64,000 nucleotides of DNA from Phreatobacter stygius (lineage in GTDB: Bacteria > Pseudomonadota > Alphaproteobacteria > Rhizobiales > Phreatobacteraceae). A program made the translations under genes and the position numbers. The stretch is from contig NZ_CP039690.1 in NCBI RefSeq assembly GCF_005144885.1, forward strand, positions 6,994,873 to 7,058,872. Reading direction: 5' to 3'. The notes under the pieces are model-generated. The model had not been told where the DNA came from and ran no database searches. It worked only from the letters and a program-made list of their open reading frames with translations. Positions 4,039 through 27,926 of the stretch are shown one piece after another (position 1 is the first letter of the stretch; each line of letters begins with the position of its first letter).

Positions 4039-4115
4039 TGGCGCGGGCGACGGGACTCGAACCCGCGACCTCCGGCGTGACAGGCCGGCACTCTAACCAA
4101 CTGAGCTACGCCCGC
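4039..4115 (-). tRNA. tRNA-Asp (GTC)
   Basis: On the minus strand the 77 bases fold as a full cloverleaf: acceptor 5' GCGGGCG pairs with CGCCCGC, followed by discriminator G and an encoded CCA. The D arm has GCTCAGTTGGTTAGAGT and the T arm has GGTTCGAGTC. The anticodon loop reads CTGTCAC, giving anticodon GTC (complement at 4079-4081), which decodes aspartate GAC/GAU. Confidence 0.97.
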
Positions 4116-23041: not shown

Positions 23042-24640
23042 TCACTCTTCCGGGGCTTCGACGATCGGATCGTAATGCGACACGTCCCAGCCGAGCAGAT
23101 TGAAGGTCTGCTGCATATGGGGCGGCAGCGGCGCCGAGACGTCGATCGTGCCCTTGCCACGCGGATGCGGCACCACCAGCCGGCGGGCATGCAGGTGCAG
23201 CTTGTGCTGCACGCCGCCCGGGATCTCCCAGTTCTCCACGTCGAAATATTTGGGATCGCCAATGATCGGATTGCCGATCTCGGCGGCGTGGACGCGCAGC
23301 TGATGGGTCCGGCCGGTGACCGGTTTCATCGACAGCCAGGACAGTTTCTGCGCCATGGTGTCGATCACGGCATAATAGCTGACCGCGTGGCTCGCGCCCT
23401 TCTCGCCATGCTTGGCGAGCCGCATGCGGCTTTCGTCCTCGCGCTCTTCCTTGGCCAGGAAGGTCGAGACCCGGCCTTGCCGGGGCTTCGGCACGCCGGC
23501 GACCACGGCCCAATAGATCTTGCGCGCCGAGCGGGTGCGGAACGTCTTGGCGAGCGCGGCGGCGGCGAAACGGCTCTTGGCGACCAGGATGCAGCCCGAC
23601 GTGTCCTTGTCCAGCCGGTGCACCAGCCGCGGACGCTGGCCGTCCTCGTCGGTCAGCACGGCCAGCATACCGTCGAGATGTTTCTTGGTGCCCGAACCGC
23701 CCTGCACGGCGAGCCCCGCCGGCTTGGCGAAGACCAGCACGTCATTGTCCTCGTAGAGCGTGATCGAGGTGAGAAAGCCCTTGATGTCCTCGCCGACCTT
23801 GGCGGTCATCGGCCGGGCCTGCTCGAGTTTCAGCGGCGGCACGCGCACCGCCTGGCCCTCTTCCAGCCGGTCCTTGGTCTCGACACGCTTGCCGTTGACC
23901 CGCAGTTCACCCTTGCGGACGATGCGCTGGATATAGCTGAACGACAGCTGCGGAAAGCGCGCGGCCAGGAACCGGTCGACCCGCATGCCGTCCTCGTCGG
24001 CGGTGATGGCGAGCGTCTGGACCCCGGTCTGCAGCGTCTCGGTGGCGGCGGCCTTCATCTCGGCCTTGGTCGGGCCGGCCGGCGGCGGCGCGGGCGCGCG
24101 CTCGTCGCGCGACGCACGCGGCGGCGGACGCCGTCCTTCGTCGTCGCGACTGCCTGGCGATGCGGCCCCGCGGCCGCCGCGGCTCTCGCGGCGTGGTTCG
24201 TCGCGGCGTGGTTCATCCCGGCGCGGTTCGTCGCGTCTTTCGGGCCTGCCATGCACCGGACGGCGCGGCTCCTCGATGCCGGCAATATCCAGATCGGCTT
24301 CCGGCGCCCAGCCGGTTTCGTCGCGCACATCCCAGTCGCTGTCGCGCCGGCGCCGCGGCGAGCCGTCGAACGAGCGCGATTCGCTCTCCTCGGCCTCCGG
24401 CCTGCGGCCGCGCGGCGGCCGGCGATCCTCGGCGCCCTGACGCTCCGGCCGCTCGGCAGCACCGGCACCAAACGGCCGCTTGCGCTCCGGTGCGGACCGC
24501 TGCTCGGCGAACCGCGGAGCCCCTGGACGCGAGGCGCCCGGGCGAGATGTGGCTGGACGCGAACCGGCCGGACGCGGCGGCCCCTTGCGCGGCGGCCTGC
24601 CGCTGCCGGAGCCCGGCGGCCGTCCTCCCTTGCCCTTCAT
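23042..24640 (-). CDS. rluC: RluA-family 23S rRNA pseudouridine synthase with long N-terminal extension
   Basis: An enzyme that isomerises uridines in 23S rRNA to pseudouridine. The C-terminal half is standard: an S4 domain from about residue 218 (MRVDRFLAARFPQLSFSYIQ) and the synthase domain with catalytic Asp in VHRLDKDTSGCIL (about residue 340) and GRTHQLRVHAAEIG. The N-terminal about 210 residues are an unstructured, Arg/Pro/Gly-rich extension, including three perfect-type five-residue repeats (RRDEP). The gene symbol is the closest functional analogue, not proven. It heads a minus-strand run with the small membrane protein, the repeat protein, HAD and ATP12 genes. Confidence 0.88.
   Translation of the reverse strand: MKGKGGRPPGSGSGRPPRKGPPRPAGSRPATSRPGASRPGAPRFAEQRSAPERKRPFGAGAAERPERQGAEDRRPPRGRRPEAEESESRSFDGSPRRRRDSDWDVRDETGWAPEADLDIAGIEEPRRPVHGRPERRDEPRRDEPRRDEPRRESRGGRGAASPGSRDDEGRRPPPRASRDERAPAPPPAGPTKAEMKAAATETLQTGVQTLAITADEDGMRVDRFLAARFPQLSFSYIQRIVRKGELRVNGKRVETKDRLEEGQAVRVPPLKLEQARPMTAKVGEDIKGFLTSITLYEDNDVLVFAKPAGLAVQGGSGTKKHLDGMLAVLTDEDGQRPRLVHRLDKDTSGCILVAKSRFAAAALAKTFRTRSARKIYWAVVAGVPKPRQGRVSTFLAKEEREDESRMRLAKHGEKGASHAVSYYAVIDTMAQKLSWLSMKPVTGRTHQLRVHAAEIGNPIIGDPKYFDVENWEIPGGVQHKLHLHARRLVVPHPRGKGTIDVSAPLPPHMQQTFNLLGWDVSHYDPIVEAPEE
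24189..24233. repeat. Three tandem 15-base repeats within the RluC-like gene
   Basis: Three copies of a 15-base unit (24189-24203, 24204-24218, 24219-24233), differing at a few bases, encode the repeated RRDEP pentapeptide of the basic extension. It is in-frame and could expand or contract without frameshift. Confidence 0.85.
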
Positions 24641-24904
24641 GCGAAACTCCTCACAGGGGCGAGCCCGGACGCGAAAGCCGCCATCGACAGGATCACCAAA
24701 CCCTTCACATAGAGCGCCACGGCGCCATAGTCACCCCGCGCGATCGGCAAGTGACGCCTCAGTTGGGTTTCGGCTCCGGCCAGGACCGGCGTTCCCGGTC
24801 CAATCACCCCCCTTGTCCGTACAAGAAAACACCTGATTGACGGCGGCAGATTTTGCGCCGCTCAATACAGCGAGCGACTTGGCTCTTGCGCCAGGAGTGT
24901 TGTC

Positions 24905-25378
24905 ATGACCGCATCGCCTCACCCTGCTGCTTCGCATCATCTGCCGGCCTTCATCACCGCTCCCAATGAGACCGATTATCTCATGGTGGCGATGGCAGTG
25001 CTCTTGGTCGTGGCCGTGCTGGCGATCGGTTTGCTCTTTCTGCGACTACACACCTTGCCCGAGCGTATGGCGCACAGGGCACACAAGCTGCAGTTCGAGA
25101 TCGTCGCCGTGTTGGGCCTTCTCGCCCTCTTTACCCACATTCACCTGTTCTGGGTGATCGGCTTGCTGCTCGCATTGATCGACATTCCCGACTTCTCGGG
25201 AATGTTCGGCAGGATGGCGGGCGCGCTGGAGAAGATTGCCCATATGGCACCCGGCACGGGCGCCGACCGGGTGCCCGAAGAAGCGATCGCCCCGGCCTCA
25301 CCGGACGACGGCCCGACGGATTCGCCGGCCGAGACCAACGTCACCACGGTCAAACCCGAGGTGTTGAGCCATGCTTGA
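24905..25378 (+). CDS. DUF3302-like small membrane protein
   Basis: A 157-residue protein with two transmembrane helices (about residues 25-47 and 64-92) separated by a LHTLPERMAHRAHK loop, and ALIDIPDF after the second helix, features that match the DUF3302 (YiaW/YibI) family. The C-terminal 50 residues are acidic and Pro/Thr-rich and probably cytoplasmic. Homologues are encoded beside an HlyD-type adaptor, as here; the eight-base overlap with the next gene supports joint synthesis. The function is unknown. AGGAG precedes the start with eight bases between. Confidence 0.7.
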   Translation: MTASPHPAASHHLPAFITAPNETDYLMVAMAVLLVVAVLAIGLLFLRLHTLPERMAHRAHKLQFEIVAVLGLLALFTHIHLFWVIGLLLALIDIPDFSGMFGRMAGALEKIAHMAPGTGADRVPEEAIAPASPDDGPTDSPAETNVTTVKPEVLSHA

Positions 25379-26603
25379 GATCCTCGTCTGCTCCTTGGTG
25401 ACGATACTTCCCGACTATCTTTTTCGCCGATACGTACAAGGAAAGCGGTTCGGCAAAGAAATCACCTTCTTTTCGGTATGGTTCGAGTTACGGTGGGGTA
25501 TCGTTACGTGTTTCATGCTTACCGTGGCACTGATAACGGTCATCTTCTACAATCATCCGTCGACGACCAGCGCCACATTGTACTTTCGGACTGTCGCGAT
25601 CGTGCCGGAGACGAACGGACGTGTCGCGGAGATCTATGTCGGCTTCAGTGATCGTATTGCAAAAGGGGCACCGATCTTCCGCCTGGACAGCACGAAGCAG
25701 GAGGCGGCCGTGGAGGCGGCCCGGCGCAAGATCACCGAGGTCGAAGCAGGCGTGGTCGTCGCGCGGGCCGAACTCCTGGCCGACGAAGGCAAGATCCAGG
25801 AGGCCAGGAGCGCCCTTGAGCAAGCACAGGATGAATTGCGGACGAAGCAGGAACTGAGGCGACGCAACGAGGCGACCGTCGCGGCCCGCGAGATCGAGAG
25901 GCTGGAGAACACCCTGGCCGGTCGCGAGGCCGCGCTATCGTCCGCCACTGCCGCGAAAGAAGCTGCCCAGGTCCGGATCTCCACGCTTCTCCCGGCCGAA
26001 AGGGCAAGCGCCGAAGCTGCCCTCGCCCAGGCCCAGGTGGAATTGGACAAGACGGTCATCCGGGCAGGTGTCACCGGCCGCGTCGAGCAGTTCACGCTGC
26101 GGGTCGGCGACATCGTGAACCCGTTCATGCGGCCCGCGGGAATTCTGATTCCCGAGGAAGCCGGGCGGCGAGGCCTGCAGGCCGGCTTCGGGCAGATCGA
26201 AGCGCAGGTCATAAAAGTCGGCATGACCGCCGAGGTGGCGTGTGCATCGAAGCCCTGGACGATCATTCCCATGGTGGTGGTGGGGGTGCAGGATTTCATC
26301 GCCGCCGGCCAGATCCGCGGCGGCGAGCAACTGGTCGAGGCTCAGCAGGCGGTCCGGCCAGGAACCATCCTGACCTTTCTCGAACCCCTCTATGCCGGCG
26401 GGCTCGACGGCGTGACGCCCGGCAGCAGCTGTATCGCCAATGCCTATACCAGCAATCATGACTTGATCGCCTCAGGCAACATCGGCACGACAAGACGTGT
26501 CGCCCTGCACGCCATCGATGCTGTCGGGATCGTCCACGCCATGATCCTCCGCTTGCAGGCGCTGGCGTTTCCGATCAAGACCCTCGTATTCGGCGGCCAT
26601 TGA
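25371..26603 (+). CDS. HlyD family membrane-fusion protein, YibH/YiaV-like
   Basis: A 410-residue periplasmic adaptor anchored in the inner membrane. N-terminal hydrophobic segments are at 1-14 and about 43-60 (GIVTCFMLTVALITVIFY). The NHPSTTSATL segment that follows resembles the start of the periplasmic part of E. coli YibH. Next come a lipoyl half-motif, a long coiled-coil hairpin (about residues 105-230), the second lipoyl half (DKTVIRAGVTGRVEQ) and a beta-barrel end. No transporter or outer-membrane channel gene is adjacent, so it may work with the upstream small protein only or with unlinked partners. The first 200 bases are notably less GC-rich. Confidence 0.85.
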   Translation: MLEILVCSLVTILPDYLFRRYVQGKRFGKEITFFSVWFELRWGIVTCFMLTVALITVIFYNHPSTTSATLYFRTVAIVPETNGRVAEIYVGFSDRIAKGAPIFRLDSTKQEAAVEAARRKITEVEAGVVVARAELLADEGKIQEARSALEQAQDELRTKQELRRRNEATVAAREIERLENTLAGREAALSSATAAKEAAQVRISTLLPAERASAEAALAQAQVELDKTVIRAGVTGRVEQFTLRVGDIVNPFMRPAGILIPEEAGRRGLQAGFGQIEAQVIKVGMTAEVACASKPWTIIPMVVVGVQDFIAAGQIRGGEQLVEAQQAVRPGTILTFLEPLYAGGLDGVTPGSSCIANAYTSNHDLIASGNIGTTRRVALHAIDAVGIVHAMILRLQALAFPIKTLVFGGH

Positions 26604-26624: not shown

Positions 26625-27926
26625 TCATCCGCGCTCGCGGCGGAGCTTGTCCCACCATTCCATGCGCTTGCGGATCTCGCGCTCGAAACCGCGCTCGACC
26701 GGCTCGTAGAGGGTCTGGCGACCGATCGCCTCGGGCCAATAGTTCTGGCCGGAAAAGGCATCCGGCTCGTCATGGTCGTAGCGGTAACCGTCGCCGTAAC
26801 CCTCGGTCTTCATCAGCTTGGTCGGCGCGTTCAGGATGGTTTTCGGCGGCATCACGCTGCCGCGCTCCTTGGCCAGCTGCGAGGCGGCTTTCCAGGCCAT
26901 GTAGGCGGCATTCGACTTCGGCGCGGTCGCCACATAGATGACCGCATTGGCCAGCGCCAGCTCGCCCTCGGGACTGCCGAGAAAATCATAGGCATCCTTG
27001 GCGGCATTGGCGACGACCAGCGCCTGCGGGTCGGCCAGGCCAATATCCTCGACCGCCATGCGCACCACGCGGCGGGCAATGAACAGCGGGTTCTCGCCGG
27101 CATCCAGCATGCGCGCGAGATAATAGAGCGCCGCGTCCGGGTCCGAGCCGCGCACCGTCTTATGCAAGGCCGAGATCAGGTTGTAGTGGCCTTCCTGCGC
27201 CTTGTCGTAGATCGGCGCGCGCCGCTGCACCACCTCCGACAGGCCGGCGGTATCGAACACCTCGTCCGGCGCGGCAGCACGCCAGACCTCTTCGGCCAAC
27301 GTCAGCACCGCCCGGCCGTCGCCATCGGCCATCCTGACCAGCGCCGCGCGGGCATCGTCATCGAGCGGCAGCGGCCGGTCCTCTTCGGCCTCGGCGCGCT
27401 TGAGGAGCTTCTCCAGCGCCTGCTCGTCGAGCGCCTTGAAGGTCAGCACACGCGCCCGCGACAGCAACGCGGCGTTCAGCTCGAAGGACGGATTTTCGGT
27501 GGTCGCGCCGACCAGCGTCACCGTGCCGTCCTCGACGACAGGCAGGAAAGCGTCCTGCTGCGACCGGTTGAAGCGATGGATCTCGTCGACGAAGAGCAGC
27601 GTGCCCCGGCCCTGGATGCGCCGCGAGCGCGCTTGTTCGAACACTTTCTTCAGGTCGGCGACACCGGTGAAGATCGCCGAGATCTGCTCGAAGGCGAGAT
27701 CCGTCTCGCCCGCCAGCAGCCGCGCGACCGTGGTCTTGCCGGTGCCCGGCGGCCCCCAGAAGATCAGCGAGCCGAGCGAGCGCGTGCGCAACAGCCGGGT
27801 CAGGGCGCCGTCCGGACCGGTCAGGTGGTCCTGTCCCGCGACCTCGGCCAGCGTCTTCGGCCTCAACCGGTCGGCGAGCGGGCGCGGCGCCTTCGGATCC
27901 GGTCCGGCGGCCTCGAACAGGTCCAC
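26625..27926 (-). CDS. rarA: Replication-associated recombination protein A (RarA/MgsA)
   Basis: A 433-residue AAA+ ATPase that acts at stalled replication forks. Walker A is FWGPPGTGKTTVARLLAGE (about residues 53-72), Walker B is LLFVDEIHRFN, sensor 1 is VGATTENPSFELN, followed by the helical C-terminal tetramerisation domain with SDPDAALYYLARML. It begins one base after the protease gene ends, so the two form an operon, an arrangement conserved in rhizobia. Confidence 0.96.
   Translation of the reverse strand: MDLFEAAGPDPKAPRPLADRLRPKTLAEVAGQDHLTGPDGALTRLLRTRSLGSLIFWGPPGTGKTTVARLLAGETDLAFEQISAIFTGVADLKKVFEQARSRRIQGRGTLLFVDEIHRFNRSQQDAFLPVVEDGTVTLVGATTENPSFELNAALLSRARVLTFKALDEQALEKLLKRAEAEEDRPLPLDDDARAALVRMADGDGRAVLTLAEEVWRAAAPDEVFDTAGLSEVVQRRAPIYDKAQEGHYNLISALHKTVRGSDPDAALYYLARMLDAGENPLFIARRVVRMAVEDIGLADPQALVVANAAKDAYDFLGSPEGELALANAVIYVATAPKSNAAYMAWKAASQLAKERGSVMPPKTILNAPTKLMKTEGYGDGYRYDHDEPDAFSGQNYWPEAIGRQTLYEPVERGFEREIRKRMEWWDKLRRERG

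Follow-up and report, generated by a model that had tools for sequence, protein, structure and literature searches.

A DUF3302-HlyD gene pair in Phreatobacter stygius with no exporter match in its surroundings

We analysed a 64,000-nucleotide stretch of Phreatobacter stygius DNA (NZ_CP039690.1, positions 6,994,873 to 7,058,872; hereafter the window) that carries two overlapping forward-strand genes, encoding a DUF3302-like small membrane protein and an EmrA-type HlyD adaptor. The genes, their predicted structural elements and the flanking genes are listed below in window coordinates.

23042..24640, minus strand: left flank, pseudouridine synthase gene (S4 and PseudoU_synth_2 domain matches), outside the module
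24641..24904, plus strand: upstream intergenic region, 264 bp, with a single weak promoter-like match at 24704-24731
24905..25378, plus strand: DUF3302-like small membrane protein gene, 157 aa (ORF, Pfam, hhalign, AlphaFold2, hydropathy)
24977..25069, plus strand: small protein, residues 25-55, predicted as its first long helix (AlphaFold2; hydropathy peak at 28-46, 3.15)
25088..25183, plus strand: small protein, residues 62-93, predicted as its second long helix and bearing the invariant E65, H78, H80 and W83 (AlphaFold2, hydropathy)
25371..25378, plus strand: 8-base overlap of the two genes (ORF coordinates)
25371..26603, plus strand: EmrA-type HlyD/membrane-fusion adaptor gene, 410 aa (NCBIfam, hhalign, AlphaFold2, Foldseek, VIA-align)
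25371..25436, plus strand: predicted N-terminal hydrophobic segment of the adaptor, residues 1-22, two short helices followed by a basic linker (AlphaFold2, hydropathy)
25467..25553, plus strand: predicted anchor helix of the adaptor, residues 33-61, transmembrane by hydropathy (AlphaFold2, hydropathy)
25692..26048, plus strand: predicted alpha-helical hairpin of the adaptor, residues 108-226, with helices 108-165 and 172-226 (AlphaFold2, alignment)
26487..26591, plus strand: predicted C-terminal helix of the adaptor, residues 373-407, hydropathy peak at 377-395 (AlphaFold2, hydropathy)
26625..27926, minus strand: right flank, RarA/MgsA-type AAA+ ATPase gene, outside the module (its 97%-identical orthologue in the congener G006 matches MgsA_C)

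Both genes read as intact open frames, and the coordinates, frames and eight-base overlap reported by an earlier reading of these letters (the sequence-only reading) proved exact. The same -8 spacing occurs in 57 of 79 named loci from other genomes (defined below), the remaining 22 having a gap of 2-19 bases, and the overlap suggests that translation of the two genes is coupled. We established no conserved motif in the upstream region. FixK/FNR control was considered and rejected as a general feature of the pair: a TTGA-N6-TCAA site is present in 3 of 80 upstream regions (the window and 79 others), and the window has none. No tRNA adjoins the pair, the sole tRNA of the window lying at 4039-4115. 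A co-directional gene follows within 300 bp in 17 of the 80 named loci, with six further loci stopping at a contig edge; ten of these 17 genes, searched against Pfam, comprise an ion channel, a DUF2092 protein, a sulfate permease, two cyclases, an NMT1-like protein, a TctC-like protein, an amidohydrolase and two genes without hits.

Residues 28-96 of the small protein match DUF3302 (PF11742) with an E-value of 5.9e-5 and 23.6 bits (25 bits in the genome search), short of the 32-bit Pfam gathering score. We built an alignment of 75 small proteins, from which six loci (L055, L066, L078, L100, L104 and L111) are absent owing to an unassigned start or a broken frame, and picked 50 rows by hand for spread as a profile. 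PF11742 was matched by 47 of these 50 at E <= 0.1 (best 5.9e-6), and any other family by at most 11. Comparison of the profile with 26 canonical DUF3302 sequences in hhalign gave a probability of 92 and an E-value of 6.2e-7 over 69 columns, and H49, P52, G71, T77, H80 and W83 (window numbering) are conserved in both profiles. By these sequence comparisons the window protein is a divergent DUF3302 homologue outside the curated family; the sequence-only reading had called it DUF3302 outright, and the homology behind that call stands.

Nine residues of the small protein (D24, H49, E53, H57, K61, E65, H78, H80 and W83) are identical in all 75 aligned sequences. The AlphaFold2 model has low overall confidence (pTM 0.37); its two long helices, 25-55 and 62-93, probably form a membrane hairpin, and a short helix (97-111) and a low-confidence tail are predicted to follow. 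A Foldseek search with this model returned no match under an E-value of 8. Sequence matches to designed coiled coils in the PDB (best E 8e-5) were rejected as a clue to the fold, being compositional and confined to the helical and tail part.

For the HlyD protein, Pfam returned nothing better than an E-value of 0.012, and the best NCBIfam matches, MdtN (6e-22) and EmrA/EmrK (3.6e-20), lie below their family cut-offs (77.9 versus 376 bits and 72.2 versus 390.8 bits). A profile of window-clade adaptors (56 of 81 rows, picked by hand for spread) aligned with YiaV, YibH and their relatives over 312 columns (hhalign E 8.9e-36), covering residues 42-363 and leaving residues 1-41 and 364-410 outside. 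The AlphaFold2 model (mean pLDDT 78.9, pTM 0.47) found EmrA as its best PDB match (Foldseek E 1.6e-17; VIA-align 2 to 8zar_D, Z 17.8, rmsd 4.9, 315 aligned), and by comparison with PDB structures it is predicted to contain the lipoyl/barrel domains and helical hairpin of the adaptor fold. The window adaptor thus appears to share an anchor, a lipoyl/barrel part and a hairpin with EmrA, but has an extra N-terminal hydrophobic segment and a C-terminal helix, E. coli EmrA showing a single hydrophobic peak. The canonical adaptor class likewise has a conserved stretch at its end.

All 81 adaptors of the clade, the window's included, are 402-415 aa long (the 402-aa copy stops at a contig end), and their hairpin tip is conserved around RNxxxVxxREIERLE. 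YiaV and YibH are shorter (378 aa, versus 410 aa in the window) and contain no cysteine, whereas cysteines 7, 47, 291 and 354 are invariant in 81 of 81 clade sequences; C291 and C354 could form a disulfide. One canonical adaptor of the window's own genome has a single cysteine. The adaptor match of the canonical pairs is 957-993 nt long in eight of 30 loci and 1095-1143 nt long in the other 22, and in the three of the eight that we aligned the missing part is the hairpin. The shortened adaptors (L152, L155, L170, L172-L175 and L177) are some 140-180 nt shorter.

In a scan of genome contigs we kept the best 80 of 251 relatives as named loci. An open small partner lies directly upstream of HlyD on the same strand in 79 of the 80, and in the 80th, a metagenome assembly (L111), the partner is present with a broken frame; this count kept all 80 named loci and left out other searched loci with a minus-strand HlyD. 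An HlyD gene is likewise adjacent to canonical DUF3302 in all 30 loci fetched. The sequence-only reading had likened the pair to YiaW/YiaV or YibI/YibH of E. coli K-12 and proposed co-occurrence as the check, and both the likeness and the conservation hold: gene order and pairing are as in the window, YiaW and YibI are homologous to the window small protein over the DUF3302 core, and YiaV and YibH to the adaptor over the profile-aligned region. The two genes make up a conserved unit of the YiaW/YiaV kind that recurs in soil-dwelling and symbiotic bacteria. Within it the window's copy belongs to a separate, divergent clade, whose members occur as pairs both on chromosomes and on large plasmids.

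Of 398 genomes sampled across the phylum, 50 have a DUF3302 match at E <= 0.001, over the cut-off in 44, and 18 match the clade HlyD profile at E <= 1e-80, one of these 18 lying outside the class. Within the order, the window HlyD has matches at E <= 1e-30 in 70 of 397 genomes, with 64 places at 50-100% identity (its own included) and 17 at 30-36%; the latter represent a further HlyD class that co-resides with the main class in several genomes. Three of 12 genomes of the genus carry the clade, including the window's own, which has two more DUF3302 pairs at about 6.53 Mb. In this genome, a more divergent DUF3302-HlyD pair (L002:1465-2732) has a short adaptor of 297 aa and lies next to a gene that looks by eye like a response regulator, and a DUF1254/DUF1214 protein gene stands immediately downstream of a canonical YiaV-type gene (L135:8085-9674, minus strand).

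We searched for exporters by phmmer with EmrB, a Microvirga MFS protein, MacB, MsbA, an RND permease, AaeB and TolC as queries (E <= 1e-5, coverage >= 50%). None of the seven matched in the 64-kb window, in agreement with the earlier statement that no ABC or MFS exporter or outer-membrane channel lies nearby, within the reach of single-sequence searches, which distant transporters could escape. A cognate inner-membrane pump gene, the mark of a tripartite efflux locus, was not found in the window. In the fetched flanks of the named loci (at most 8 kb per side, with certain contigs shorter), an exporter-like gene is present at 13 of 80: six RND, six MFS and one MsbA-like. The other 67 of 80 are an upper estimate of loci without an exporter, single-sequence searches missing distant relatives. 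TolC- or AaeB-like genes were found in the fetched flanks of none of the 80 loci. The 25-kb stretch of K-12 that holds both of its pairs has no exporter among 25 annotated features, as in the window. Across the window's whole genome, four open frames have OEP/TolC-type matches over the cut-off, and FUSC (PF04632) has no match.

The lack of an exporter in cis, together with the sub-threshold DUF3302 score, is what one would expect if the locus were a relic or a chance arrangement: an adaptor left behind when its pump was lost, preceded by a small ORF to which it is unrelated. This explanation is contradicted by the conservation we found: both genes are intact, the 80 named HlyD sequences are all distinct and 66-77% identical to the window's, and the nine invariant positions of the small protein are charged or aromatic. 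We give it almost no credence.

No neighbour is common to most of the 80 named loci, and we therefore set aside conserved neighbours as a functional clue. MscS-type channels lie near five of the 80 loci and on four of five plasmid regions that we chose by hand (plasmid and chromosomal cases are L130, L131, L133, L134, L057 and L067). DUF2950 genes occur near three of the 80 and on three of the five hand-chosen plasmid regions, a Bosea-type cyclase near four of the 80, and an RND pump on one of the five hand-chosen regions. Certain other loci have ion or sulfate transporters, or sensor kinases with LuxR regulators. At the Microvirga loci a phosphotransacetylase gene was assigned by Pfam, and acetate kinase, phosphoketolase and FabI were named by eye from their first residues.

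The clade is matched by 109 plasmid records, mainly from Sinorhizobium and Rhizobium, of which 66 are typed as conjugative. In a phylogenetic tree that included a row read in the wrong frame (L026, end branch about 10), the window HlyD falls within a Bosea-type set of 12 rows with 99% SH-aLRT support, and the copies of two congeners, 59-60% identical to the window's, cluster with Rhizobiaceae plasmid copies. When we repeated the tree with 33 rows and without L026, Bosea was again nearest to the window, and no supported set contained the window. A 33-row tree forcing the window and the two congeners together was rejected (AU p 3e-6); this group is taxonomic and was set after the first tree was known.

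The position of the pair, between a pseudouridine synthase gene and rarA that both lie on the opposite strand, bears on the same question. In 10 of 11 congeners the sole crcB lies within 1 kb of rarA. Of seven congeners that we inspected closely, six have a CrcB-type frame in the gap that separates rarA from the synthase gene, and the seventh (G008) has a profile match there. CrcB proteins are a family of fluoride channels. The window's genome has no crcB match at the rarA-synthase slot and two adjacent crcB matches at 4.82 Mb; the nearest congener, G006 (rarA 97% identical), also has no match at the slot and two adjacent ones elsewhere. Beside rarA, G006 carries a 2857-aa ORF with cadherin repeats (L180:142-8715, plus strand), and no pseudouridine synthase match was found within 8.9 kb on that side of rarA. 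The tree placement and the replaced crcB slot support insertion of the pair into a labile slot, and thus transfer or relocation of the window's pair; its direction and donor we infer.

The sequence-only reading had also taken the low GC content at the start of HlyD as a hint of transfer. Codons 1-75 of the gene have 48.9% GC versus 65.4% in the remainder, and the two genes of the pair are the third and fourth lowest in GC3 among 54 window genes. A drop at the HlyD start is seen in 81 of 81 sequences, the window's being the largest in GC and the second largest in GC3. Transfer finds its support mainly in the tree and the crcB slot; the drop largely reflects a trait shared by the whole family, and we rejected it as a sole sign of transfer. 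Base composition agrees weakly with transfer.

In the parts of the literature available to us, DUF3302, YiaV, YiaW, YibH and YibI appear without an assigned function for the pair, the mention of DUF3302 carries no function, and we found no substrate or phenotype for the window's clade. The excerpts seen report that deletion of yibI in UTI89 lowers fitness in urine (CI 0.33) and adherence (PMC5404293), and that deletion of yibH in K. pneumoniae reduces plaque formation by several evolved phages (PMC11796411). YiaU is proposed to be the LPS regulator LpsR in a text whose available part does not name yiaV or yiaW (PMC9068703); yiaU adjoins yiaV in E. coli K-12. As far as the sources were accessible, yiaV or yibH also appears in a biofilm-response list (1.50-fold; PMC3646849), an association study of Vibrio vulnificus (PMC10485832), two reports on knockout collections (PMC10971958, PMC9405208) and a screen of transposon mutants (PMC11960076), in each case with no mechanism given, and the yibH locus merely as an insertion site (PMC5852967). 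Induction of DUF2950 in root-nodule bacteria is reported from transcriptome studies (PMC4653623).

The yibI and yibH phenotypes, to the extent that these partly seen reports describe them, could be of an envelope type. They would fit a complex of the inner membrane and periplasm that exports nothing and helps to keep the envelope intact, for instance through upkeep of lipid, LPS or peptidoglycan or under osmotic stress, with the adaptor fold as a scaffold. That 8 of 30 canonical pairs have a shortened adaptor agrees with such a role, as do the MscS-type channels at five of 80 loci and four of five plasmid regions and the ion or sulfate transporters and sensor kinases at others. Those five plasmid regions were, however, hand-picked, and the uniform length and conserved hairpin tip of all 81 clade adaptors suggest a partner at the tip. 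We consider a purely non-export complex rather unlikely.

Known tripartite systems offer a comparison. EmrAB-TolC has the EmrB pump, whereas the window has no EmrB-like match and a small partner gene instead. In AaeX-AaeA, a small membrane-protein gene precedes the adaptor gene, as in the window's pair, and MdtN of MdtNOP is the best NCBIfam match of the window adaptor. In both AaeXAB and MdtNOP the adaptor works with a pump of the FUSC type, and AcrZ is a small helper subunit of the sort to which DUF3302 might be compared. Unlike AaeXAB and MdtNOP, the window's genome yielded no FUSC match, and the flanks of the 80 loci no AaeB-like gene. Kinship of DUF3302 with AaeX received no support from a weak test, the profile aligning with a single AaeX sequence at E 0.33 over one column.

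It is a realistic possibility that the window encodes an ordinary EmrA/MdtN-type adaptor. Such an adaptor would serve a pump, or several, whose genes lie elsewhere in the genome, and DUF3302 would be a small helper like AaeX or AcrZ. The NCBIfam matches, the predicted complete fold with its hairpin and the TolC-type genes elsewhere in the genome all agree with this, and the six RND and six MFS genes flanking named loci, joined by the RND pump on one of five plasmid regions, fit an accessory adaptor equally well. Against it stand the 67 of 80 loci with no exporter in their fetched flanks, the genome's lack of a FUSC match, the weak AaeX comparison, and the spread of the pair, including onto plasmids, with no fixed pump.

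The reading that we prefer, and to which we give close to an even chance, is an inner-membrane/adaptor module without its own pump, in which DUF3302 takes the place of the pump or helper and which works autonomously or uses pumps in trans. It draws on the pairing (79 of 80 and 30 of 30), the -8 spacing, the EmrA-like predicted fold and the 67 of 80 loci without an exporter; on the mobility of the clade, as seen in the plasmid records and the Bosea grouping; on a genome with four OEP/TolC-type frames and no FUSC; and on the envelope hints from the partly seen reports on yibI, yibH and LpsR (PMC5404293, PMC11796411, PMC9068703). The coupled genes would yield the two proteins jointly, and these would assemble into a single inner-membrane complex. 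There the small protein would be a membrane hairpin bearing the conserved His and Glu residues, and the adaptor would be anchored beside it through its N-terminal hydrophobic segments, oligomerising like its EmrA relatives and reaching with its helical hairpin toward the outer membrane. DUF3302 would stand in for the pump subunit of ordinary tripartite systems, or for a helper of the AaeX sort; we place it there on the ground that no dedicated pump accompanies the pair from one replicon to another, and we keep any pore or pump role conditional because the model of the small protein is weak. The module might act alone at the inner membrane with a borrowed TolC-type channel, or join pumps encoded elsewhere. 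Given the shortened canonical adaptors, reach to an outer-membrane channel would not be general to the wider family.

A more far-reaching version of this module would be a complete new transporter, and we think it unlikely. A two-helix DUF3302 oligomer would form a His/Glu-lined passage through the inner membrane under an EmrA-like adaptor ring, replacing the pump, and C7, C47, C291 and C354, which lie in the adaptor's N-terminal helices and barrel, would be sensitive to redox state or metal.

The proposal of the sequence-only reading, a two-component envelope machine, is possible. For the role of the pump-free module, envelope homeostasis or stress export is likely, rather than that of a pathway-specific pump.

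The kind of gene pair to which the window's belongs is known but functionally uncharacterised, and the window's is a divergent and mobile variant of it. With DUF3302 in 50 of 398 genomes of the phylum, HlyD adjacent in 30 of 30 loci and two pairs in E. coli K-12 alone, the family is widespread. A mobile clade that has no pump of its own, and that combines invariant cysteines with membrane histidines, would allow the question of whether an adaptor functions without a dedicated pump to be tested in a small system.
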